DNA of 43,351 nt. Origin: a virus. A program made the position numbers and the translations under genes. Position 1 is the stretch's first letter; each line of letters begins with the position of its first letter. The notes beneath the pieces were generated by a model. It was given only the letters and a program-made list of their open reading frames with translations, ran no database searches and was not told where the DNA came from. Of the stretch, positions 3,321 to 20,894 are shown piece after piece. The stretch covers positions 1 through 43,351 of IMG/VR virus record IMGVR_UViG_3300042015_000035. One strand, 5' to 3'.

Positions 3321-3881
3321 TCAGCATACATCGCCAGCATTATGACCTCGCGAGTTAAACTCTTTCCACCAATAGCGTCCAGATGTTGGCCTAGTTTCGA
3401 TATTGCCGTTATTGTCGATAAAACCCCATACAGGAACGCGCTCAGGCTCAACGAGAAGCATCGACCATGTGCCCGGCTGGACTTCTGCTATTCGGTGAAT
3501 GTCGTGCATTCCAATGCGTCGAGTGCGGTCTGGTATCTTTCGCAGTGGGTGGTTTAACTCAGCCTTGGCGCATAGGTTAATTAGGAAATTGCGGCTTGCA
3601 TCGCCTGGGTAAATTGTCCGCTCAAGCTTTTCACCGTCCAGCAAATACTCTTCGCGGTATGAGCCACACAAAACAGATGAGCGCATGTTCATAGGGTGCC
3701 AGTGCAGATGCTCGTCGCCATCGCCAGAGAGGAATCGATGAAACCACAAATCAGTCTCGCCGATCTGATTAGCGAATTTACCGGCGTACATTCTTTGTAT
3801 GTACGGGCTATCATTAACATTAATCTGCTTACACGGCATATTGGCCGTTAATTCAAGCATGAATGCGTTATCTGGCTTCAT
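3321..3881 (-). CDS. Cupin-fold protein, putative metal-binding
   Basis: The 186-aa protein has an HxHxH cluster (EHLHWHPM, residues 57-64; H58, H60, H62) followed by GSYREEY with E78. This is the usual metal-binding first cupin motif. A second-motif-like region is near HDIHRIAEVQPGTWSMLLVE. The protein is probably a single-domain RmlC-like cupin. Whether it is an enzyme (isomerase or oxygenase) or a binding protein cannot be told. It is followed by a 4-nt-overlap partner upstream (DUF551-like gene). Confidence 0.6.
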   Translation of the reverse strand: MKPDNAFMLELTANMPCKQINVNDSPYIQRMYAGKFANQIGETDLWFHRFLSGDGDEHLHWHPMNMRSSVLCGSYREEYLLDGEKLERTIYPGDASRNFLINLCAKAELNHPLRKIPDRTRRIGMHDIHRIAEVQPGTWSMLLVEPERVPVWGFIDNNGNIETRPTSGRYWWKEFNSRGHNAGDVC

Positions 3882-4084
3882 TGTTGATCCTTAGGCGGTT
3901 GAGGCAATGGCATCCAGTGCGATGCAGGCCATGGCGCAGGCATATGATCCTCAGCCAACAGCACCCCCAAGCTGGTGATGCGACACAGCATTAATCTATG
4001 ATTTTTTATAGGAACAAAGCATAAAAACATTGTTCCATCTTTCGGTGCCGTTTCTATCGGCTGCCATTCACCCAGTGTGTTCAT
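3878..4084 (-). CDS. DUF551-like small protein
   Basis: The 68-aa protein fits the short DUF551 pattern often seen in phage early regions: an N-terminal W-QPIETAPKDG block and a C-terminal SHWMPLPQPP block. Its function is not established. Its start overlaps the upstream gene (4068-4262) by 17 nt and its stop overlaps the cupin gene start, so these three genes are tightly coupled. Confidence 0.75.
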   Translation of the reverse strand: MNTLGEWQPIETAPKDGTMFLCFVPIKNHRLMLCRITSLGVLLAEDHMPAPWPASHWMPLPQPPKDQQ

Positions 4085-4262
4085 GCTTATACCTTTCTAA
4101 TATATAAAACGCTTCGTTAATGTGATTGACGAAATCCTGCGCTGCTCTGACGTTAAAGGCATTGACGAATAACCGAAACTCACCATTGCAATATACGCCC
4201 CATCCCGGTAATGGCTCGCCGTTCAATTCCTTCTGTGCTGATTTAATTTGGTAGGGGTGCAT
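4068..4262 (-). CDS. Hypothetical small protein
   Basis: The 64-aa protein begins MHPYQIKSAQKELNGEPLPG and continues with VYCNGEFRLFVNAFNVRAAQ, suggesting a small beta-rich fold with a helical tail. It is not recognised. It starts 2 nt after the end of the upstream gene in the leftward operon. Confidence 0.65.
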   Translation of the reverse strand: MHPYQIKSAQKELNGEPLPGWGVYCNGEFRLFVNAFNVRAAQDFVNHINEAFYILERYKHEHTG

Positions 4263-11204: not shown

Positions 11205-11513
11205 ATGGACGCTGAAGATTTAAAAAACAGGCTTGATGCCATTGAATCTAATGCAAAAAGTCAGCGTGGCAAGGCTATCCACGAATATTGCATGGCCAAT
11301 AATACCGTAAAAATTGGAGATATTATATCAAATCGCCAAGCATGCATTCTTGTGGAATCAATTAAAGCGTCAAAATTGTTTGGTTCCGACAGGTACGAAT
11401 GCGCTTATGCTGGTATTGATTTGACAAAGAAGCTGGAACCCAAGAAGAATGGCAGCAAGTCTCTTATTTTTCAGTCTAGCATAGAAAAGCATATTGCAAA
11501 GCCAAATAGCTAG
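11205..11513 (+). CDS. Hypothetical protein before the structured RNA
   Basis: The 102-aa protein begins MDAEDLKNRLDAIESNAKSQ (helical), and contains VKIGDIISNRQACILVESIK, a likely strand-helix unit. It is not recognised. AGGAAATG precedes both ATG 11199 and ATG 11205; spacing favours 11205. The last 20 codons contain the -35 of the next promoter. Confidence 0.6.
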   Translation: MDAEDLKNRLDAIESNAKSQRGKAIHEYCMANNTVKIGDIISNRQACILVESIKASKLFGSDRYECAYAGIDLTKKLEPKKNGSKSLIFQSSIEKHIAKPNS

Positions 11514-11521
11514 GCTATAAT
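11494..11521 (+). promoter_or_regulatory. Sigma-70 promoter for the 11.5-kb structured RNA
   Basis: TTGCAA (11494-11499) and a perfect TATAAT (11516-11521) are separated by 16 nt. The expected start, about 11528, falls exactly at the first base of a 9-bp stem. The match between the predicted start and the edge of the RNA structure supports a dedicated RNA promoter. Confidence 0.7.
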
Positions 11522-11527
11522 ACATAG

Positions 11528-11745
11528 GCCAGTCTGTTCTGTGTCATACCCGTGATGCAGGCAGACTTGGCTTTAACCCATAGCCGAAAGGTGACCTTAT
11601 GACAGAGGTCGGGGAAATGCAGGTAAGACCTGAGACGCCTTTGATAGTCGCCCCTTGTTTTACCGTAAAACAATGGCGAACCCTTTCTGCCAGTTACCTG
11701 CAACGGTATCTGTCATGCAAGGGGTGACTATCAAAGGCTTTTTTT
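11528..11745 (+). ncRNA. Pseudoknotted small RNA with terminator-like 3' end
   Basis: No credible gene fits here. Stems seen: 5' hairpin 11528-11536 with 11562-11571 (9 bp, one bulge); 11599-11606 with 11709-11716 (8 bp perfect); 11618-11626 with 11694-11702 (9 bp perfect); 11637-11657 with 11718-11738 (21 bp, one G-U), followed by seven T. The second and third helices enclose the left arm of the 21-bp helix, so together they form a pseudoknot. A small hairpin GTTTTA/TAAAAC lies inside. I do not recognise the RNA. It could be an independent sRNA, or a leader controlling the gene starting at 11746. Confidence 0.7.
11637..11745 (+). terminator. Terminator-like 21-bp helix with T run
   Basis: The arms 11637-11657 and 11718-11738 form a 21-bp helix with one G-U pair, followed directly by TTTTTTT (11739-11745). 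The loop is about 60 nt, much longer than in ordinary intrinsic terminators, and contains a nested hairpin. The right arm also contains AAAGG, a possible ribosome site for ATG 11746. The element could thus terminate, or hide a ribosome site. Confidence 0.6.
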
Positions 11746-11904
11746 ATGTCCGCAAAAAAGTATCCATACAAAACTGACGCGCAGATTAAGCGCTGCGCAG
11801 AACTCCAGTCTAAGGCCGATAGAATGGCCGACAATATCAAGCACGCAAAGAATAAACCATTGGCCGTGCATTCGTTCCTGCAATGCCTGTACCTGGCTAT
11901 TTAG
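11746..11904 (+). CDS. Small basic protein, 52 aa
   Basis: The 52-aa protein (MSAKKYPYKTDAQIKRCAEL...) is lysine-rich and helical. It starts right after the T run of the structured RNA; the only ribosome site is AAAGG inside the 21-bp helix. Its stop is 2 nt before the initiator ATG (11907), so it may serve to couple initiator translation to the RNA structure. Function unknown. Confidence 0.5.
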   Translation: MSAKKYPYKTDAQIKRCAELQSKADRMADNIKHAKNKPLAVHSFLQCLYLAI

Positions 11905-11906
11905 CT

Positions 11907-12659
11907 ATGAGCGGATGGATAAAGCTGCACCGGTCAATGCTGTCTAACGAGTTATGGGAGGCTGAGCCTTTTACCTATGCCCAGGCGTGGATAGATATTT
12001 TGCTTAATGCCAACTACCAGCCAAAAAATATCATTATTCGCGGCATTGCGCTAACCATTGATCGCGGTCAATTGGGTTGGTCAGAGGTCACTATGGGCGA
12101 CCGCTGGAAGTGGTCTAGGGACAAGGTTAGAAGGTATTTAAAGCGTCTTGAAAGTACGTCAATGATAATACAGCAGAAAACACAGGTAACAACAATCATA
12201 ACTGTTTGTAATTACTCAAGTTTTCAGTCATTAGATACATCGGACGATACACCAGACAATACACCGAGCGATACATCGGACGATACACAACATAAGAAGT
12301 TAAGAAGTAAAGAAGTAAAGAAAAGGGCTTCCGGCAAGCCGGCTATAACTTTCACTCAGTGGATTGAATCATTAAAACAACTGAACGAAAAGCCGATACC
12401 TGATGACCACTCAGTTTTTGAATATGCAGCTGATGCCGGGATAAGTACTGATTACCTTCGTTTAGCATGGGTTGAGTTCAAAGCGCGATACAGCGTTGAG
12501 GACAAGAAATACAAGGATTGGCGAGCAGTGTTCGGCAAGTGGGTCAGAGAGAATTGGCCCAAGCTTTGGTGGTCTGATGGAAACGGATACCAGCTAACGG
12601 CGAAAGGCCTGCAGGCAATGACAGCAATGATTAACCGAGATAAGCGAGAAGAACAATGA
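11907..12659 (+). CDS. Replication initiator / replisome organiser
   Basis: The 250-aa protein has an N-terminal winged-helix-like domain (GWIKLHRSMLSNELW ... IALTIDRGQLGWSEVTMGDR ... SRDKVRRYLKRLE), as in phage replisome organisers. Then comes a T/D/S-rich linker made of tetrapeptide repeats, a basic patch, and a C-terminal domain ending KDWRAVFGKWVRENWPK, a DnaD-like motif for helicase contact. It is followed with a 4-nt overlap by a DnaB helicase, the usual O/P-like pair. ATG 11907 is chosen since the protein family starts near GWIKLHR; ATG 11883 is in frame. Confidence 0.75.
   Translation: MSGWIKLHRSMLSNELWEAEPFTYAQAWIDILLNANYQPKNIIIRGIALTIDRGQLGWSEVTMGDRWKWSRDKVRRYLKRLESTSMIIQQKTQVTTIITVCNYSSFQSLDTSDDTPDNTPSDTSDDTQHKKLRSKEVKKRASGKPAITFTQWIESLKQLNEKPIPDDHSVFEYAADAGISTDYLRLAWVEFKARYSVEDKKYKDWRAVFGKWVRENWPKLWWSDGNGYQLTAKGLQAMTAMINRDKREEQ
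12234..12293 (+). repeat. Five 12-bp direct repeats (candidate iterons, origin)
   Basis: Units at 12234, 12246, 12258, 12270 and 12282 follow the pattern GATACAYCGGAC; units 1 and 4 are identical and the others differ at 2-5 positions. They encode the repeated DTSD/DTPD linker of the initiator. As in lambda O and other phages, iterons inside the initiator gene often mark the replication origin. A repeat kept only for protein reasons is the alternative. Confidence 0.6.
12294..12317 (+). repeat. Three 8-bp purine-rich repeats beside the iterons
   Basis: AAGAAGTT, AAGAAGTA and AAGAAGTA follow directly on the 12-bp repeats. Together they make an A-rich strand of the type that melts at phage origins. 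They encode a basic stretch (KLRSKEVKK). Confidence 0.45.
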
Positions 12660-14026
12660 GATTTTCAATAGAAGCTGAGCAAAGCCTAGTTGGTGGACTG
12701 CTGTTAGATCCAAATCGACTTGATGACGTTTTAGAGATTACTGGTGCCGAAGATTTTTACAGTGCTGATAACCGCTCTATCATGCGTTACATCACTGAGG
12801 TGGCTCAGGCTGGCCGAACTGCTGACGTGATTACCGTTGCTGATGCCATGAGTGACGCCGGGATGCTTGATGCAGCTGGTGGCATTGGTTACCTGGTTGA
12901 GCTGGCCAACAACACGCCTGGAGCATCCAACGTTGCAGCCTACGCTCACATCGTAGCCGAGAGGGCGATAGAGCGCCGTATCAGCGAGGCAGGGCAGCGC
13001 ATAGCCGAATTAGGCGAAGATGAGTCCATTGGTGTGGATGACAAGCTGGACACGCTACACGGCGAACTGGCGGGGCTTGAGCGCAAGGATTTAACCACGG
13101 ATTACAAAGTGTTTGACCAGATTCTTAAATCCCGGGTTCAGGTGCTTGATGACAAATTCCGGGGAATGGTTAAGCGCGGAATTGATCTTGGATTCACCGA
13201 CCTGGACAGAAGGTTTCAGGGAATAACAGAAACCGACCTGATTGTCCTGGCTGCTCGCCCGTCAATGGGGAAAAGCGCACTTGCGTTTAACATTGCGAGA
13301 AACATTGCCATGGGTGGGCGCGAGGTTATTATTTTCTCGATGGAAATGAGCCGGGAGCAGGTTGTTGACCGGATGATTTCATCACTGGCCGGCATAGAGT
13401 CAGACAAGATCAGAAGCGGGCAGCTTAAGGAACAGGATTGGCCGGCGCTATCGGCTGCTGTTCAGCGCATGAAGGGATTAAAAATTCACATCATAGATAC
13501 ACCCGGGATAGACGTTAGGCGCGCCCAGGCTATTTGCAGGAAGTTTGCGCGCAATGGCGATATAGGGTTGATCGTTGTTGATTACCTTCAACTGATGACC
13601 GACTCTCGCGAGAAGGATCGATTGCAGGTTGTTTCGAGTGTTAGCCGTGAGCTGAAGAAAATGGCAAAGATGATTAAGTCGCCGGTAATAGCATTGTCAC
13701 AGCTTAACCGCTCATGCGAGCAACGCGGAGACAAGAGGCCGCTACTTTCAGACCTTCGCGAGTCTGGCCAGATTGAGCAGGACGCCGACATAATAAGTTT
13801 TATTTATCGCGATGAGTATTACCACGAAAACAGCCCAAACAAAGGGCTTGCCGAAATCATCACAAGAAAGTTCAGGGAAGGCGAAAACGGTACGGAAATT
13901 TTAGGAACAGAATTTCAGTTTGCAAGGTTCACAAATTTAAGCCAGGTTATTTACGATCACGACTGGCAAGAAAGAGAGCGAGAAAAAGAAAGCAAAGGAG
14001 CAAAACGCAGCGGCGGATTCAGTTGA
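12656..14026 (+). CDS. dnaB: Replicative DNA helicase, DnaB family
   Basis: The 456-aa protein is a full-length DnaB: an N-terminal domain (residues 1-105, starting SIEAEQSLVGGLLLDPN), a linker, and a RecA-like motor. Walker A is ARPSMGKS (200-207), motif SMEMS near 228, Walker B GLIVVDYLQLM (304-314), and QLNRSCEQR and LRESGQIEQDADI further on. It unwinds DNA at the fork and would be loaded by the initiator. ATG overlaps the initiator stop. Past its TGA the +1 frame stays open for 26 codons (see findings). Confidence 0.95.
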   Translation: MRFSIEAEQSLVGGLLLDPNRLDDVLEITGAEDFYSADNRSIMRYITEVAQAGRTADVITVADAMSDAGMLDAAGGIGYLVELANNTPGASNVAAYAHIVAERAIERRISEAGQRIAELGEDESIGVDDKLDTLHGELAGLERKDLTTDYKVFDQILKSRVQVLDDKFRGMVKRGIDLGFTDLDRRFQGITETDLIVLAARPSMGKSALAFNIARNIAMGGREVIIFSMEMSREQVVDRMISSLAGIESDKIRSGQLKEQDWPALSAAVQRMKGLKIHIIDTPGIDVRRAQAICRKFARNGDIGLIVVDYLQLMTDSREKDRLQVVSSVSRELKKMAKMIKSPVIALSQLNRSCEQRGDKRPLLSDLRESGQIEQDADIISFIYRDEYYHENSPNKGLAEIITRKFREGENGTEILGTEFQFARFTNLSQVIYDHDWQEREREKESKGAKRSGGFS

Positions 14027-14901: not shown

Positions 14902-15408
14902 ATGATAATCACAAGAGAATGGGCGATGCCAAATCATAAAACGTTTGACATAAAGCCAATAAGGAAATGTATAGACAGAAATATATTTGGAGTTAGTATT
15001 GATCCATTTGCAAACCAGTCAAGAATTGCCACGCATAACAATGACCTTGATCCACAATATGGTTGCGAGTTTAACATGGAGGCTATAGATTTTCTAAAGT
15101 CATTTGGCGATGAGTCTGTCGATTCTGTTTTATTTGACCCTCCATATAGCCCGAGGCAAATTTCAGAATGCTATAAAGCTCTAGGCCGTAGCGTTAACAT
15201 GCAGACAACACAGTCCAGCTTTTGGTCTGAGCTTAAAAACGAAATATCAAGGATAGTTAAGCCATCAGGTATTGTTATGACATTCGGATGGAACAGTGGT
15301 GGGATAGGCAAGAAAAATGGTTTTGAGATAATCGAAATATTAATGGTTGCTCATGGCGGCTGGCATAATGACACAATCACAACAGTTGAAAGAAAACTGG
15401 ATAAATAG
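14902..15408 (+). CDS. DNA adenine methyltransferase-like protein
   Basis: The 168-aa protein contains the amino-methyltransferase motif IV DPPY (SVLFDPPYSPRQISECYKAL, about 74-93), then a helix and VKPSGIVMTFGWNSGG, the usual strand after it. It lacks a clear glycine-rich SAM motif I; IFGVSIDPFAN near residue 29 may fill this place. Small versions like this are common in phages and may methylate adenine to evade restriction. ATG 14902 is used; an ATG at residue 9 is possible. Confidence 0.75.
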   Translation: MIITREWAMPNHKTFDIKPIRKCIDRNIFGVSIDPFANQSRIATHNNDLDPQYGCEFNMEAIDFLKSFGDESVDSVLFDPPYSPRQISECYKALGRSVNMQTTQSSFWSELKNEISRIVKPSGIVMTFGWNSGGIGKKNGFEIIEILMVAHGGWHNDTITTVERKLDK

Positions 15409-16695: not shown

Positions 16696-16728
16696 GAACG
16701 CATAGACAAACAACAACGGGTGAGCGAG

Positions 16729-16920
16729 ATGAACAAGACTTCAGCCAAGGTAATTAATAATTATGCAAATAGTATTGCAATGAAAAAAATTATTAACAAA
16801 AAAGGATGGTCAAAGCAGGATGCAGTTTATGCTTTGGCAGATTATGTTACCAGCGGATCGAAAGTTTCAGTTTATGAGTTTTTAAATAACTACAAAAATA
16901 CAACAGTTTCTTTGCATTAA
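16729..16920 (+). CDS. Hypothetical small basic protein
   Basis: The 63-aa protein (MNKTSAKVINNYANSIAMKK...) is basic and helical; WSKQDAVYALADYVTSGS could be a helix-turn-helix-like unit but is weak. ATG 16729 has GGGTGA upstream; GTG 16720 is in frame. First gene after the strong promoter. Confidence 0.6.
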   Translation: MNKTSAKVINNYANSIAMKKIINKKGWSKQDAVYALADYVTSGSKVSVYEFLNNYKNTTVSLH

Positions 16921-16929
16921 CGGACAATT

Positions 16930-17169
16930 ATGAATATTGATAATTCATTTTATGAGCATTACGGATATAGGAGATGCAGAGAGCATACCTTAAGAATTAT
17001 AGCTGATAATCGACCAGAATCATTAGCGGTAGAGGCGGCGAATCAAATTAATCATTTGAAAAAGTGCTTAAGAGAAATTTGTTGTGCAGTTGAGAGTCAT
17101 AATAAATCAACTAACGATAGCATTGCTTTGATAGAATTGAAAGAATCTAAAAATGCATTAAATAAATAG
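16930..17169 (+). CDS. Hypothetical small protein
   Basis: The 79-aa protein begins MNIDNSFYEHYGYRRCREHT and continues with a helix (EAANQINHLKKCLREICCAV). It has four cysteines but no metal-site pattern. Not recognised. Confidence 0.55.
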   Translation: MNIDNSFYEHYGYRRCREHTLRIIADNRPESLAVEAANQINHLKKCLREICCAVESHNKSTNDSIALIELKESKNALNK

Positions 17170-17189
17170 GTTATATAGTTGGAGTTTTA

Positions 17190-17327
17190 ATGCCTAAACC
17201 AAGAAGCGAAATAGATTCAAACAAGCGAAAGAACTACAAGGATAAAGGGCTAACCGATGTAAGGATCTGGATAAAACCAGAAAACAAGCCAGAAGCTCGC
17301 AGGATGGAGAAAGAGTGGCGTAAGTGA
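17190..17327 (+). CDS. Small ribbon-helix-helix-like protein
   Basis: The 45-aa protein has RKNYKDKGLTDVRIWIKPEN, a strand with alternating residues like the DNA-contacting strand of small phage RHH proteins, then a short helix. GGAG lies 6 nt before ATG 17190. Assignment is tentative. Confidence 0.5.
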   Translation: MPKPRSEIDSNKRKNYKDKGLTDVRIWIKPENKPEARRMEKEWRK

Positions 17328-17536
17328 ATTTAAATAAAGGTTATAATGTGAAAATTAGTTATGTAGATTTCAAGAAAGAATTTCCGGTATTAAAAGGAGA
17401 TGGGCAGATATTCAATAAATTTTTCTACATTAAAAAATACTGGAATGGAAAGATTATTGTTATCGGATTTAAGAGTCATCAGATTACATTTGATTTTCGC
17501 GGTAATTTTTTTAATGAGATGACAGGAAAGAAGTAA
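17324..17536 (+). CDS. Hypothetical beta-rich small protein
   Basis: The 70-aa protein (FFYIKKYWNGKIIVIGFKSH...) appears mostly beta-stranded and basic. GTG 17324 overlaps the previous stop; a GTG at 17348 with AAAGG upstream is also possible. Its stop lies right at the start of the structured RNA. Confidence 0.55.
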   Translation: MNLNKGYNVKISYVDFKKEFPVLKGDGQIFNKFFYIKKYWNGKIIVIGFKSHQITFDFRGNFFNEMTGKK

Positions 17537-17858
17537 TGGCAAGCCAATTCGGCATAAAGGAATTGGCAACCTAAATAGCGCTGCGGCTTTAACTAACTCA
17601 GTCGCGTGAGGTCAGCCCGGGCTGTAGTGTTATTTAGGTTGTGTAGGCTATAGCACAACAGGGTAGCGAGCCACTGCGTTGTAGTTTTAACAGTGGCAAA
17701 CAAGCTAAACGAAAGCCGGGTTAATCGCCGGAGCAGGTGAGTAGCAGTGCGATAGCTACAGGGAGTCGCACAGTGAACTGCATAGGCCTGAAGACCCTGT
17801 AGCCACTGATCATGGGTTTAGCAATGAGCGCAGGTATTAACGCTGCGCAGTTTTAAAT
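17537..17858 (+). ncRNA. Structured RNA with H-type pseudoknot, abutting tRNA-Pro
   Basis: No open frame of note occurs on either strand. Hairpins seen: 17543-17550 with 17560-17567 (8 bp perfect); 17568-17577 with 17631-17640 (10 bp perfect), enclosing the palindrome CAGCCCGGGCTG; 17639-17643 with 17654-17658 (5 bp); 17670-17676 with 17691-17697 (7 bp perfect); 17828-17833 with 17843-17848 (6 bp). A pseudoknot is formed by 17747-17752/17766-17771 (6 bp) crossing 17755-17763/17795-17803 (9 bp), with 2-nt linkers. The tRNA follows at 17859. It is probably one transcript, later cut by RNase P. Not recognised as a known family. Confidence 0.7.
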
Positions 17859-17935
17859 CAGAGCGTAATGTCAATTGGTAGGCGGCCGCCCTTGGATGGC
17901 GGGGGTTGTAGGTTCGAGTCCTACCGCTCTGACCA
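17859..17935 (+). tRNA. tRNA-Pro(UGG)
   Basis: The 77-nt sequence folds as a cloverleaf. Acceptor CAGAGCG/CGCTCTG (C1-G72 as in proline tRNAs), D stem TGTC/GGCG with loop AATTGGTA, anticodon stem CCGCC/GGCGG with loop CTTGGAT (anticodon TGG), and T arm GTAGG-TTCGAGT-CCTAC. Then comes discriminator A and encoded CCA. It reads CCA and probably other proline codons. It directly follows a structured RNA. Confidence 0.93.
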
Positions 17936-17940
17936 TATTC

Positions 17941-17951
17941 GCCGAAATGGC
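17941..17951 (+). other. GCCGAAAtGGC hairpin after the tRNA
   Basis: Immediately 3' of the tRNA, GCC-GAAAT-GGC can form a tiny hairpin. The surrounding 13-mer ATATTCGCCGAAA (17935-17947) is repeated at 18229-18241, where the hairpin is GCC-GAAA-GGC. The two sites flank the 80-aa gene 17986-18228. The role may be in RNA processing or tertiary docking. Confidence 0.4.
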
Positions 17952-17985
17952 ACATAATTATTATTGCAATTAACAGGAATAAATC

Positions 17986-18228
17986 ATGATCGGACAAAAC
18001 ATTATATTTTACGCGCCAGATGAAAAAATAGGTAAGTCTCTGGAAGAATGCGAGGCTTTTAGAGTTAAGTTATCAGACGAAATACTGAAGCGTTATCCTG
18101 AGGCTAGCGTACATGTTTCGCCTCGCGAAGGTCATCGTCGTGTAAGCGGTTTTAGTACAGAAGAAAACGATAACGCAGACGCAGAGGTGGCTGAGTGGTT
18201 GGATAAACTTATTAAAAGGCTTGCGTGA
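17986..18228 (+). CDS. Hypothetical protein between RNA elements
   Basis: The 80-aa protein begins MIGQNIIFYAPDEKIGKSLE and contains a helix (ECEAFRVKLSDEILKRYPEA), then VHVSPREGHRRVSGF and an acidic helix ending WLDKLIKRLA. It looks like a real folded protein. AGGA lies before ATG 17986. Its position between structured RNAs may be chance. Not recognised. Confidence 0.7.
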   Translation: MIGQNIIFYAPDEKIGKSLEECEAFRVKLSDEILKRYPEASVHVSPREGHRRVSGFSTEENDNADAEVAEWLDKLIKRLA

Positions 18229-18440
18229 ATATTCGCCGAAAGGCAAAAATATAGTAGGCGAGGAAGGTCGGAGGACCATAGCCGAAAACTGGCGGACAAT
18301 GTTGATAGATCTGGCGGTGCTGCTGGCAGGCAGTCTGAAAGGGCTGCACTAATTCCGAGGAGAGAGCCGCGAGGATACAAGCTCTGGCCATGACTGATGA
18401 TTGGCTGAAACAGCGGCACTAATTCAATAACGGGTGATAT
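18229..18440 (+). other. Structured non-coding stretch, candidate RNA
   Basis: These 212 bases have no credible gene. Visible small stems: GCC-GAAA-GGC (18235-18244); GGTC-GGAG-GACC (18266-18277); GCC/GGC around GAAAACT (18281-18293); AGAGC/GCTCT (near 18363-18385). GCACTAATTC occurs twice, 70 bp apart (18346-18355 and 18416-18425), each time after a G/C-rich stem-like element. Stems are shorter than in the other RNAs, so this is a weaker candidate. Confidence 0.45.
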
Positions 18441-18656
18441 ATGAAACAGTTTGTTTTAAGTCATGACGATTACGAAAGCCTTTTGGCTGTGTTCACAATT
18501 GCATTAAGCTCCGGCGGCAATGAAAGAATGAATTCTGAAATAAAGGATCTGGAAACAAGAATTCAGCTAATTGCAAAAGATTGCAGTGATCCTTACCGCG
18601 CAGGACAAGTTGACATTATTCGCCAAATAAAAGACGTTCTTGAGATTGAATCATGA
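18441..18656 (+). CDS. Hypothetical helical protein
   Basis: The 71-aa protein (MKQFVLSHDDYESLLAVFTI...) is mainly helical and acidic. GGGTGAT lies before ATG 18441. The stop overlaps the start of the lipoprotein gene. Not recognised. Confidence 0.65.
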   Translation: MKQFVLSHDDYESLLAVFTIALSSGGNERMNSEIKDLETRIQLIAKDCSDPYRAGQVDIIRQIKDVLEIES

Positions 18657-18805
18657 AATACATATTGGCATTGTTAATAGTTGTCCTGGCTGGGTGTAAT
18701 AGTTCCGAGCCTGAGAAAATTGAAGAATCTGACCTTATAAAGGTTAACTTCAGTGATGGAAGTCTTGCGATTGCTGCGGAAAGGCAATTGTTCAGGGTGT
18801 TGTAA
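18653..18805 (+). CDS. Small lipoprotein, 50 aa
   Basis: The 50-aa protein has a clear lipoprotein signal: MKYILALLIVVLAGCNSSEP with lipobox VLAGC and the lipid cysteine at residue 15, followed by an acidic, polar mature part of 36 residues. Small phage lipoproteins made outside the lysis cassette often alter the cell surface (superinfection exclusion or receptor masking). That role is an inference. It overlaps both neighbours. Confidence 0.65.
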   Translation: MKYILALLIVVLAGCNSSEPEKIEESDLIKVNFSDGSLAIAAERQLFRVL

Positions 18806-18957
18806 TGAGCAATGGGGATTGCATAGGCAATGACTGCTACGAAGTAGTATGGCGCACTCCTTCTGCCATAAAGTATGGAAATGGCGCTGAAGCAATGTTT
18901 AAAATAATGGGAGCAAAAAAATGCCTGCGCGATTACGCAATAAAGTGCGCGGCATAA
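18805..18957 (+). CDS. Small cysteine-rich protein, 50 aa
   Basis: The 50-aa protein (MSNGDCIGNDCYEVVWRTPS...) has four cysteines and a short helix, with no clear membrane segment. ATG overlaps the lipoprotein TAA. Function unknown. Confidence 0.5.
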   Translation: MSNGDCIGNDCYEVVWRTPSAIKYGNGAEAMFKIMGAKKCLRDYAIKCAA

Positions 18958-19238
18958 ATGATGCTATGATTTATGCCGCTAACATGGAGTCTATTAGTGG
19001 TTGGCCAAAGTGTTATTTCTGGAGAGCTGTTTGGTGGAGGTTGCATTCTCGAGAAAGCATGAATAAATCAGATCCATTTAAATACTCAAGAAATCTTGTC
19101 ATGCTTTATAACGATATAAAGTTTAGAAGAAATCACTATATTGGAAAGCCAAAAGAAAAAACAGATTGGGAGTGGTCTGGTTTATTTAATCAAAAGCCAA
19201 ATGGCGGCATAACCGGAGAGCAAAATGCAATATTATAA
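18921..19238 (+). CDS. Basic hypothetical protein
   Basis: The 105-aa protein is basic and aromatic-rich (KCYFWRAVWWRLHSRESMNK). It begins inside the previous gene; GGGAG lies 7 nt before ATG 18921, with a second in-frame ATG at 18966. Not recognised. Confidence 0.55.
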   Translation: MPARLRNKVRGINDAMIYAANMESISGWPKCYFWRAVWWRLHSRESMNKSDPFKYSRNLVMLYNDIKFRRNHYIGKPKEKTDWEWSGLFNQKPNGGITGEQNAIL

Positions 19239-19374
19239 TGAGGATGATGGCAAAATCCATGCTGATTATAGCGAAGATGAAAGTCCTTGGCCGCTGTTTA
19301 TTGTCCTTGTAGTAGTATTTGGGGTGGTGGCATTTGGCGCGTATTATGTTGATGTAAGTGTGTTAAGTAACTGA
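19225..19374 (+). CDS. Small membrane protein, 49 aa
   Basis: The 49-aa protein has an acidic N-terminus (MQYYNEDDGKIHADYSEDES) and one membrane helix (PLFIVLVVVFGVVAFGAYYV). GGAGAG lies before ATG 19225. It overlaps the end of the previous gene by 14 nt. Function unknown. Confidence 0.6.
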   Translation: MQYYNEDDGKIHADYSEDESPWPLFIVLVVVFGVVAFGAYYVDVSVLSN

Positions 19375-19412
19375 TTTTGTAGTAAAATAAATTAACCTTT
19401 TGGAGAAATATT

Positions 19413-19580
19413 ATGAAGCTTAAATCTACCGGTCAAGTTGTTGAAGATCTGCCTTTTGTTGGAGTTGGTCACGCTCCATGGCCTACTGATTATCGCCGTG
19501 TGTTGATAGCCAATGACTGTAAAAACGGTAATCGTGCAGTAACTCAGATAGTTCATATTTCGAAACTGTCTGAAAAGTAA
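19413..19580 (+). CDS. Hypothetical protein just before the large RNA
   Basis: The 55-aa protein (MKLKSTGQVVEDLPFVGVGH...) looks like a small beta-rich fold. TGGAGA lies 7 nt before ATG 19413. Its stop is immediately followed by the large gene-free RNA region. Not recognised. Confidence 0.6.
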   Translation: MKLKSTGQVVEDLPFVGVGHAPWPTDYRRVLIANDCKNGNRAVTQIVHISKLSEK

Positions 19581-20366
19581 TTGATTTACGCGCAGCCTCT
19601 CTCGCGGATGTACAGAGAGGCCACCGATCTGGGTATTGGCTGACGTACGGGGCATTATTGTCTGCGTCATAAGGGAAGCTAGCTGCTCTAGCCATCCAGT
19701 ATCCAGTTCGGTGTCAAGCCAAAGTAGTTCTGGTAGGCTCAGAGCGAATAACTGGCACCGCCCATTCTCACGAGTGGGCAACCGTGTGGTAGCTCAGTGA
19801 TGTCAAGTGCCTGTTTATGTCGGCCAGTATTGAGTTATCACACGGTTGAATTTACCGACCCGCTTAACGGTATTAGGCGGCTTTGATCCGAGTATCGGGT
19901 ACCTGAAGTGTACAGTGGGGTTGATCACCACACCCGGTATTCGGTTCAAAGAATTAGCCAGGATGGCGAAAGATCGTACCATCACAATACTCCCAAGTAG
20001 TGATGCAGGCCGCAGTCTCTACGACTGAAGAAGTGATAGCACAGAAACCTTAAGTGGTCTCGTAGCTTGCCATTTTACTGCGGCTCGGTTGGCAAGGTGA
20101 GGGAGTTGGAAGCTTGGGAAGACAAGCAGATTGCGGATTCTAGTTAGTCCGCAGCCTTAAGTCCTTTGTGTAGCTCAGAATTGCTTAGAGCGGTGGACTA
20201 GTGCAGTCCGCAGGTCACTGGTTAAAGTCCGGTCACAGAGGCATTAAGGCTGATAATCAACAAGAGGTGCGGAAGGTGTATGGCGCATTATAAATGCCAG
20301 ACAGCCTGGAAAGACGGGCACAAATTCAACCGCCTGCCGTTTGGCAATGCTTGCATGTAGGTAAAT
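19581..20366 (+). ncRNA. Large ornate structured RNA (GOLLD/ROOL-type candidate)
   Basis: A 786-nt stretch with no plausible gene but many long stems. Examples: 19595-19602/19614-19621 (8 bp); 19760-19766/19773-19779 (7 bp); 19780-19796/19831-19847 (17 continuous pairs, two G-U); 19881-19900/19932-19951 (20 positions, one mismatch, two G-U); 19980-19985/20000-20005 (6 bp); 20066-20072/20090-20096 (7 bp); 20112-20116/20123-20127 (5 bp); 20132-20137/20148-20153 (6 bp). A 9-bp stem 20152-20160/20244-20252 frames a tRNA-shaped domain. Size, phage setting and tRNA association recall GOLLD and ROOL RNAs, which form RNA-only cages. Family membership is inferred, not shown. Confidence 0.8.
20164..20241 (+). 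ncRNA. tRNA-like domain inside the large RNA
   Basis: A cloverleaf is visible: acceptor CTTTGTG/CACAGAG (one G-U), linker TA, D stem GCTC/GAGC with 11-nt loop, anticodon stem GTGGA/TCCGC, variable AGGTC, and T arm ACTGG-TTAAAGT-CCGGT. Unlike a working tRNA, the anticodon loop has nine bases (or five with two extra pairs), the T loop lacks its usual C, and no CCA follows (CATT). It is enclosed by a 9-bp stem of the host RNA. It is more likely a structural mimic than a decoding tRNA. Confidence 0.75.
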
Positions 20367-20573
20367 ATGAAATTTGATATAAGCCCAGAATGGCGCGAGA
20401 AAATGGCAAAGAAGGAAAACGGCATGGAAATAGGCGCTGGTAAAAGTATATTCAACGATGTTGAGTTGTGCCCCAAGTGCCTGAATTCTCGCCCGGCAAA
20501 AGATTGGTGCGAATGCTGCGACGGCGTTGGACTTATTGATGTTGGCAAGCAAAACAGCCCGTACGGGGATTAA
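20367..20573 (+). CDS. Small zinc-binding protein
   Basis: The 68-aa protein contains CPKCLNSRPAKDWCECCDGV, a DnaJ-like zinc pattern with two CxxC units. The N-terminal part (MKFDISPEWREKMAKKENGM) is helical. It starts right after the large RNA. Function unknown. Confidence 0.65.
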   Translation: MKFDISPEWREKMAKKENGMEIGAGKSIFNDVELCPKCLNSRPAKDWCECCDGVGLIDVGKQNSPYGD

Positions 20574-20589
20574 CTAACTAGAGGTGATT

Positions 20590-20703
20590 ATGTACGAAAC
20601 TATCGGAATTATTGTGGCCGTTATAGCAGTTATTATTGTTGGGCTGCGCGCTACAGGGCTTATCAAGATCGATATAAGCATTGGCAGCGGTTCAGGAGAT
20701 TGA
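20590..20703 (+). CDS. Small membrane protein, 37 aa
   Basis: The 37-aa protein has one N-terminal membrane helix (IGIIVAVIAVIIVGL), then a short polar tail ending SIGSGSGD. GAGGTGAT precedes ATG 20590. Function unknown. Confidence 0.6.
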   Translation: MYETIGIIVAVIAVIIVGLRATGLIKIDISIGSGSGD

Positions 20704-20704
20704 T

Positions 20705-20845
20705 ATGGATGTCGAATACAAAAATGCCAGGATATTTGTATTGCGGCATGCGGCCAGCTGGATCGATGACTTAGAAGGAACTGATCTAATGCTTGATGCT
20801 AATGCTGAGTTTGTTGCCTATCTTGTTGGAATGCTAGCAAATTGA
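20705..20845 (+). CDS. Small soluble protein, 46 aa
   Basis: The 46-aa protein (MDVEYKNARIFVLRHAASWI...) is helical and acidic. AGGAGAT lies upstream, and the ATG follows the previous stop by one base. Function unknown. Confidence 0.55.
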   Translation: MDVEYKNARIFVLRHAASWIDDLEGTDLMLDANAEFVAYLVGMLAN

Positions 20846-20857
20846 CGCCAGATGCAA

Positions 20858-20888
20858 TATAATTTCCGTGTCTACACGATAATCACGG
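20858..20888 (+). promoter_or_regulatory. TATAAT box and hairpin before the terminase genes
   Basis: TATAAT (20858-20863) has no convincing -35. Just downstream, CCGTG (20866-20870) can pair with CACGG (20884-20888); the right arm overlaps the region where the ribosome site for ATG 20895 should be. It may be a weak promoter, a translation-control hairpin, or neither. Confidence 0.3.
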
Positions 20889-20894
20889 GCTTAA

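Follow-up and report, generated by a model that had tools for sequence, protein, structure and literature searches.

A conserved multi-pseudoknot RNA shared by a group of tailed phages, possibly a leader of the gene block into replication

Is the folded RNA that lies ahead of the replication genes of a phage an independent molecule, or does it belong to the gene that follows it? We addressed this question with an IMG/VR virus record of 43,351 bases from an environmental phage, taken over its whole length and called the window here. It combines a head and terminase set (Terminase_3 and a P22-type stabilisation protein) with a lambda-like early region. For its structural and replication genes, the closest relatives among isolates come from phages of Pseudomonas, Aeromonas, Vibrio and Shewanella, together with a Leptolyngbya phage. 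A sequence-only reading had placed a self-contained, pseudoknotted RNA before the replication genes of this record, and genes for a helicase loader and a replicative helicase were indeed found downstream of it (Table 1). To our knowledge, phage leader RNAs as complex as this one are scarce, and no example has been described from the entry to the replication genes in lambda-like gene orders. The lambda OOP RNA is 77 nt long, runs in the opposite direction and is antisense to cII. The RNA in the window shares with OOP (reviewed in PMC12197685) the form of a small RNA gene beside replication genes in a lambda-like gene order, but it is sense-oriented and heavily folded.

Table 1. Positions in the window of the RNA element, its predicted parts and the genes that follow.
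Feature	Position	Strand	Remarks
Sigma-70-type promoter	11494..11521	+	TTGCAA 11494-11499, 16-nt spacer, TATAAT 11516-11521
RNA element		+	between a 104-aa ORF (ends 11513) and a small ORF (11746-11904)
P0, 5'-terminal hairpin	11528..11571	+	first base is the predicted transcription start; stem GCCAGTCTG (11528-11536) with CAGACTTGGC (11562-11571)
Three-way junction	11577..11613	+	P1 (CCC 11577-11579 / GGG 11611-11613) around hairpins H and G; from the MFE structure
Hairpin H, GCC-GAAA-GGU	11583..11592	+	GNRA loop in most members; GUAA in L046 and L058
Hairpin G	11593..11610	+	loop is strand A5; 4/4 core pairs covary across 9 sequences
A5	11599..11606	+	pseudoknot strand in the loop of hairpin G; partner 11709-11716
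B5	11618..11626	+	pseudoknot strand; partner 11694-11702; 0/20000 permutations
BD strand, GGUAAGAC	11622..11629	+	competing helix with GUUUUACC (11657-11664)
C5	11637..11657	+	5' strand of the 21-bp terminator helix; 15/21 pairs covary
Hairpin D	11657..11671	+	loop carries E5 (11661-11666); permutation test, chain-growth folding
Hairpin F (UGGC/GCCA)	11674..11692	+	sequence highly conserved
B3	11694..11702	+	3' strand of pseudoknot B; permutation test and window helix check
E3	11703..11708	+	pairs with the hairpin D loop, 11661-11666
A3	11709..11716	+	3' strand of pseudoknot A; permutation test and window helix check
C3	11718..11738	+	3' strand of the terminator helix; carries Shine-Dalgarno-like AAGG 11734-11737
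T7 tract, predicted RNA 3' end	11739..11745	+	T6-T8 in all members
52-aa basic ORF	11746..11904	+	opened by the ATG abutting the T tract
DnaD-like helicase loader gene	11883..12659	+	PHROG 2514, E 7e-27
DnaB-type replicative helicase gene	12656..14026	+	identified by sequence

The minimum free energy predicted for positions 11528-11745 is -97 kcal/mol (z = -8.1), and none of 200 dinucleotide shuffles was as stable. The sequence-only reading had described a good promoter ahead of the RNA, a stem that begins at its predicted start, a 21-bp helix with seven T at the 3' end and two perfect helices of 8 and 9 bp that cross this helix, and all of these elements withstood closer analysis. The promoter boxes agree with the consensus at 10 of 12 positions, and a TTG-like box, a spacer of exactly 16 nt and a TATAAT-like box stand in all ten copies of the family described below. 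From the sequence we infer the transcription start site, on the first base of hairpin P0, and the efficiency of termination at the T tract; the promoter is in addition backed by its conservation. P0 is free to vary in sequence and size within the family and is missing from one member (L057). The long helix (helix C) includes one G-U among its 21 bp, and the crossing helices are pseudoknots A (8 bp) and B (9 bp). Among 2000 dinucleotide shuffles, none contained a perfect helix of 18 bp or more, and a crossing pair of Watson-Crick helices, each 8 bp or longer, occurred in 0.4%.

Four features go beyond the earlier description: a further loop contact (helix E), the three-way junction, a competing helix between strand B and the 5' side of hairpin D (B-D5), and an ATG that abuts the T run, with AAGG in the terminator stem. 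Helix E, a 6-bp contact (UACCG/CGGUA), is complementary in every copy and invariant, and is therefore supported by conservation and not by covariation. The P1 pairs of the three-way junction, CCC/GGG in the window, are TCT/AGA in L058, and the junction was not seen in L053 and L057. The 3' strands follow one another in the order B3, E3, A3 and C3, in the window without any gap except for 1 nt before C3 (G in the window, C elsewhere), and this 45-nt stretch pairs successively with four earlier segments. The short linkers suggest that helix C and a stack of B, E and A might lie side by side.

We found ten copies of the element, nine of them distinct in the core, each in a separate IMG/VR contig of an uncultured phage. 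The distinct copies are those of the window, L037/L038, L043, L044, L046, L048, L053, L057 and L058. The 52-aa ORF, used as bait in IMG/VR, led to three contigs, two with the RNA directly upstream and a third (L039) without it, and motif patterns derived from the first copies led to seven further copies. A sequence-only profile detected one sense-strand copy per contig with E values of 3e-28 to 3e-41, which are not independent tests because the profile was built from these same contigs; its weak echoes on the opposite strand come from the inverted repeat. The smallest member, in L057 (4911-5053, minus strand), has G, B, C, D, E, F and A only and lacks the 5' hairpin, P1 and H; this copy offers a natural minimal version for structure work.

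A structure-model scan of the false hits revealed no additional copies, and a looser pattern in IMG/VR returned nothing but false hits beyond the known members. The pattern run on GTDB genome contigs, which matches 8 of the 10 known copies, gave three chance hits, none with the flanking anatomy of the element. By blastn, the window region had no match in INPHARED or in E. coli genomes, L046 and L048 had none in INPHARED, and L046 had none in plasmids. The helicase-loader protein as IMG/VR bait found no relatives, and DnaB as bait found a single distant relative, which is without the RNA. Leptolyngbya phage Lbo-JY16, Pseudomonas phage AH02 and ctTUS972, the closest isolates in which a related DUF1376 gene occurs, do not have the RNA either. 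A pattern placed on one arm of the 21-bp helix retrieved 32 contigs, which were discarded as chance matches; none of them shares anything beyond the arm. The family is nonetheless probably larger than ten copies, extending beyond the IMG/VR, INPHARED and GTDB-contig scans.

The contig found without the RNA (L039, IMGVR_UViG_3300049032_000049, 3500-4160) carries the same 52-aa ORF, which has further homologues in L037, L038 and L053, all with the RNA; in L039 it starts 3 nt past the stop codon of the upstream gene. Because the helicase of L039 is 60% identical to that of the window, compared with 57-67% for the helicases adjoining the RNA in L041, L042 and L053, the RNA is present or absent as a unit.

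To judge whether these helices are real, we compared the duplex energy that each strand reaches when paired with its own partner and when paired with the partners from other phages, over 20000 permutations. The observed mean was reached in none of the permutations for B, in 2 for C, in 27 for B-D5, in 70 for A, in 116 for G and in 251 for the hairpin D. An alignment built by hand, helix by helix and with knowledge of the structure, contains 29 column pairs in which both sides have changed without loss of pairing (15 of 21 in C, all 4 in G, 3 each in B and H, 2 each in A and P1), so that six helices covary, both crossing helices included, with a modest number of independent changes; the centre of helix C is identical in L043, L046, L048 and L058. 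As judged from these compensatory changes, the element is a conserved structured RNA whose anatomy is kept in nine relatives. An ordinary long terminator hairpin with pseudoknots arising by chance, or a short coding gene, would not account for helices that covary, and we give such explanations next to no weight, even though an ORF of 42 aa (11599-11727) is open within the element. The coding reading of this ORF was rejected; it is not conserved in the relatives and has no family match.

The RNA had not been recognised among known phage RNAs, and the Rfam and phage-genome searches now carried out agree in returning no significant match. Rfam 15, searched at gathering and at relaxed thresholds, gave nothing significant (E > 0.09), with rli48 at E 0.38, KDPG-aldolase at E 1.1 and microRNA hairpins at E 0.1-1.3, and the open-access literature yielded no description of this RNA. 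The layout has a counterpart in the HDV fold, a nested double pseudoknot of P1, P2, P3 and P1.1. In order and nesting B, C, D and E match these four elements, all members keep the order of B, C and the invariant E as an HDV-like nested double pseudoknot with a P1.1-type contact, and E joins the loop of D to the strand directly after B3. A self-cleaving ribozyme of the HDV type is nevertheless very improbable. The equivalent of P2 is 21-23 bp long, the P4 hairpin is absent, its place being taken by a pairing between A3 and the loop of G, and the catalytic motif and cleavage-site features are missing. Only 1 nt separates A3 from C3, no CNRA strand precedes C3, and the 5' end of B has no conserved G; CPEB3/HDV-like models match the L057 copy at chance level only and in a shifted position.

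The junction with the next gene bears on the question of independence. In all ten copies (L043 via L090), the long helix and the T run are followed at distance 0 by an ATG, which opens at least four kinds of gene: the 52-aa ORF in the window, L037, L038 and L053, Rha/ANT antirepressors, recognised by Pfam in L046 and L057 and from the sequence in L043 and L058, and proteins without an assignment in L044 and L048. The gene after that is a helicase loader or of the DUF1376 type in the window, L041/L037, L042/L038 (L042 by sequence), L044, L048, L053 and L058; in L043, L046 and L057, no such gene was seen immediately following the antirepressor. Because the downstream genes differ, no common regulated function is evident. 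The sole Shine-Dalgarno-like sequence, a well-spaced AAGG, is buried in C3; it precedes the ATG by 8 nt in the window and by 8-9 nt in most members. The constant position of the ATG despite changing genes is best explained by the 3' end of the RNA supplying and controlling the ribosome-binding site. The proposal of a self-contained, independent RNA is thus borne out with respect to the fold, the promoter and the terminator. On independence, the abutting ATG and the buried Shine-Dalgarno sequence point instead to a leader acting in cis, and one RNA might serve in both ways. Judged from the sequence comparisons, the element is probably a cis-acting leader that terminates transcription and masks the ribosome-binding site of the next gene.

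A small basic ORF (about 42-52 aa) before a DnaD/DUF1376-type gene occurs in the window (11746-11904), L091 (2858-2995) and L093 (2344-2472). Such ORFs before a replication gene are also present in distant phages without the RNA, and they possibly encode a conserved replication microprotein.

Like riboswitch and attenuator leaders, the family has a structured and conserved domain placed in the 5' UTR of the next gene, with a pseudoknotted core, a terminator that overlaps the ribosome-binding site and, as a candidate alternative structure, mutually exclusive helices. It departs from them in having its own conserved promoter and 5' hairpin within the unit, in being followed by at least four kinds of phage gene and in matching nothing in Rfam. 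By this likeness we regard it as a putative leader that works in the manner of an attenuator or riboswitch. Taken as a whole, the best explanation, to which we assign a probability of roughly one half, is that the RNAs form a new family of structured leaders, placed at the start of the gene block that leads to the replication genes of these tailed phages.

The most substantial competitor, which we rate as appreciably less probable, is a free-standing RNA of about 218 nt that would target, in trans, a protein of the host or the phage, or an mRNA, with the abutting ATG reflecting genome compaction. A promoter at fixed spacing, a 5' hairpin at the start site and a strong terminator in nearly all members would suit such an RNA, as would the variable downstream genes and a core whose sequence conservation far exceeds the needs of base pairing. 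However, the ATG keeps an identical position in all ten copies across at least four gene kinds, the terminator stem contains a Shine-Dalgarno-like sequence, and an antisense search within the phage found no complementarity longer than 12 nt elsewhere. A different kind of action in trans would resemble the c4 RNA (RF01695) of P1/P7-type phages, with A5 and B5 of one phage pairing with A3 and B3 of another transcript near its ribosome-binding site and thereby controlling immunity or an antirepressor. Four of the ten copies do stand directly before Rha/ANT-type antirepressor genes, with position and promoter resembling the c4 arrangement, and B differs between phages. We consider this unlikely, since A is nearly identical in all phages and would confer little specificity, the other six copies precede other genes, and the copies in the window, L046, L053 and L057 have no Rfam match to c4; the phage RNA is also larger than c4 RNA, unmatched in sequence and structure, and ends in a long terminator of its own.

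For a leader RNA, the competing helix B-D5 could provide an alternative state. The GGUAAAC end of B5 matches GUUUACC in D5 as a second partner, and the resulting helix would place C5 within its loop. The lengths of the A-run in B5 and of the U-run in D5 vary together in 9 of 9 distinct copies, and B-D5, which encloses C5 and has no bases in common with C3, is backed both by the permutations and by chain-growth folding. In the simulated growing chain, B-D5 was favoured until B3 was made in seven of the nine copies, the exceptions being L046 and L053, and once B3 emerged it gave way to B-B3 and hairpin D in most members; hairpin D, by contrast, pairs imperfectly in L037, L053 and L058. The structure does not by itself require a switch, because the bases of the final pseudoknots and those of the terminator helix are not in competition, and B-D5 could be a mere folding intermediate.

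We propose the following course of events for the leader RNA. Transcription from the dedicated sigma-70-type promoter would begin at the foot of a protective 5' hairpin, and at an early stage B would pair with D5, so that C5 is kept within a hairpin loop. Once B3 has been made, B would shift to it and hairpin D would form. The last approximately 45 nt (B3-E3-A3-C3) would then pair in turn with B5, the loop of D, the loop of G and C5, giving a nested multi-pseudoknot that closes with the 21-23-bp helix and the T run. The helices of this final state are supported by covariation, except for E, and their order of formation is what we infer from the sequence. In the final state, the polymerase would stop some 150-220 nt from the start, and an mRNA made by read-through would carry a buried Shine-Dalgarno sequence, leaving the next gene off. 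A signal that favours B-D5, or otherwise keeps C5 off C3, would let the polymerase pass and expose the ribosome-binding site; the switching step, its presumed trigger and the role of B-D5 as a regulatory state are the conjectural parts of this scheme. The RNA, which matches no Rfam family, looks like a new kind of gene switch. More tentatively still, it might be a phage switch in which an HDV-like multi-pseudoknot, locked by ordered strand exchange of its last approximately 45 nt, senses a cellular or phage signal and gates the expression of the genes that lead into replication through termination and hiding of the ribosome-binding site. If true, this would be a natural case in which both effects are achieved by a multi-pseudoknot formed in order, and a possible RNA-level control over the entry into phage DNA replication. 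With a covariance model, covariation, a promoter and a terminator, the family is defined well enough for an Rfam entry and for direct testing.

Several other features of the window were recorded. A search for tRNA and tmRNA with ARAGORN called only two genes, both away from the RNA element: tRNA-Pro (TGG) at 17859-17935 and tRNA-His (GTG) at 20164-20242, the latter called by ARAGORN only and not by Rfam. These phage tRNA genes lie in a region of about 4 kb between NinG/Rap and the packaging genes (16700-20890) that otherwise contains small ORFs only. Downstream of the helicase, positions 14902-15408 encode a DNA methyltransferase (PHROG 11619, E 1e-51). On the minus strand, a 186-aa ORF at 3321-3881 matches the cysteine dioxygenase PHROG 4786 (E 7e-17), an unusual cargo in a phage early region.
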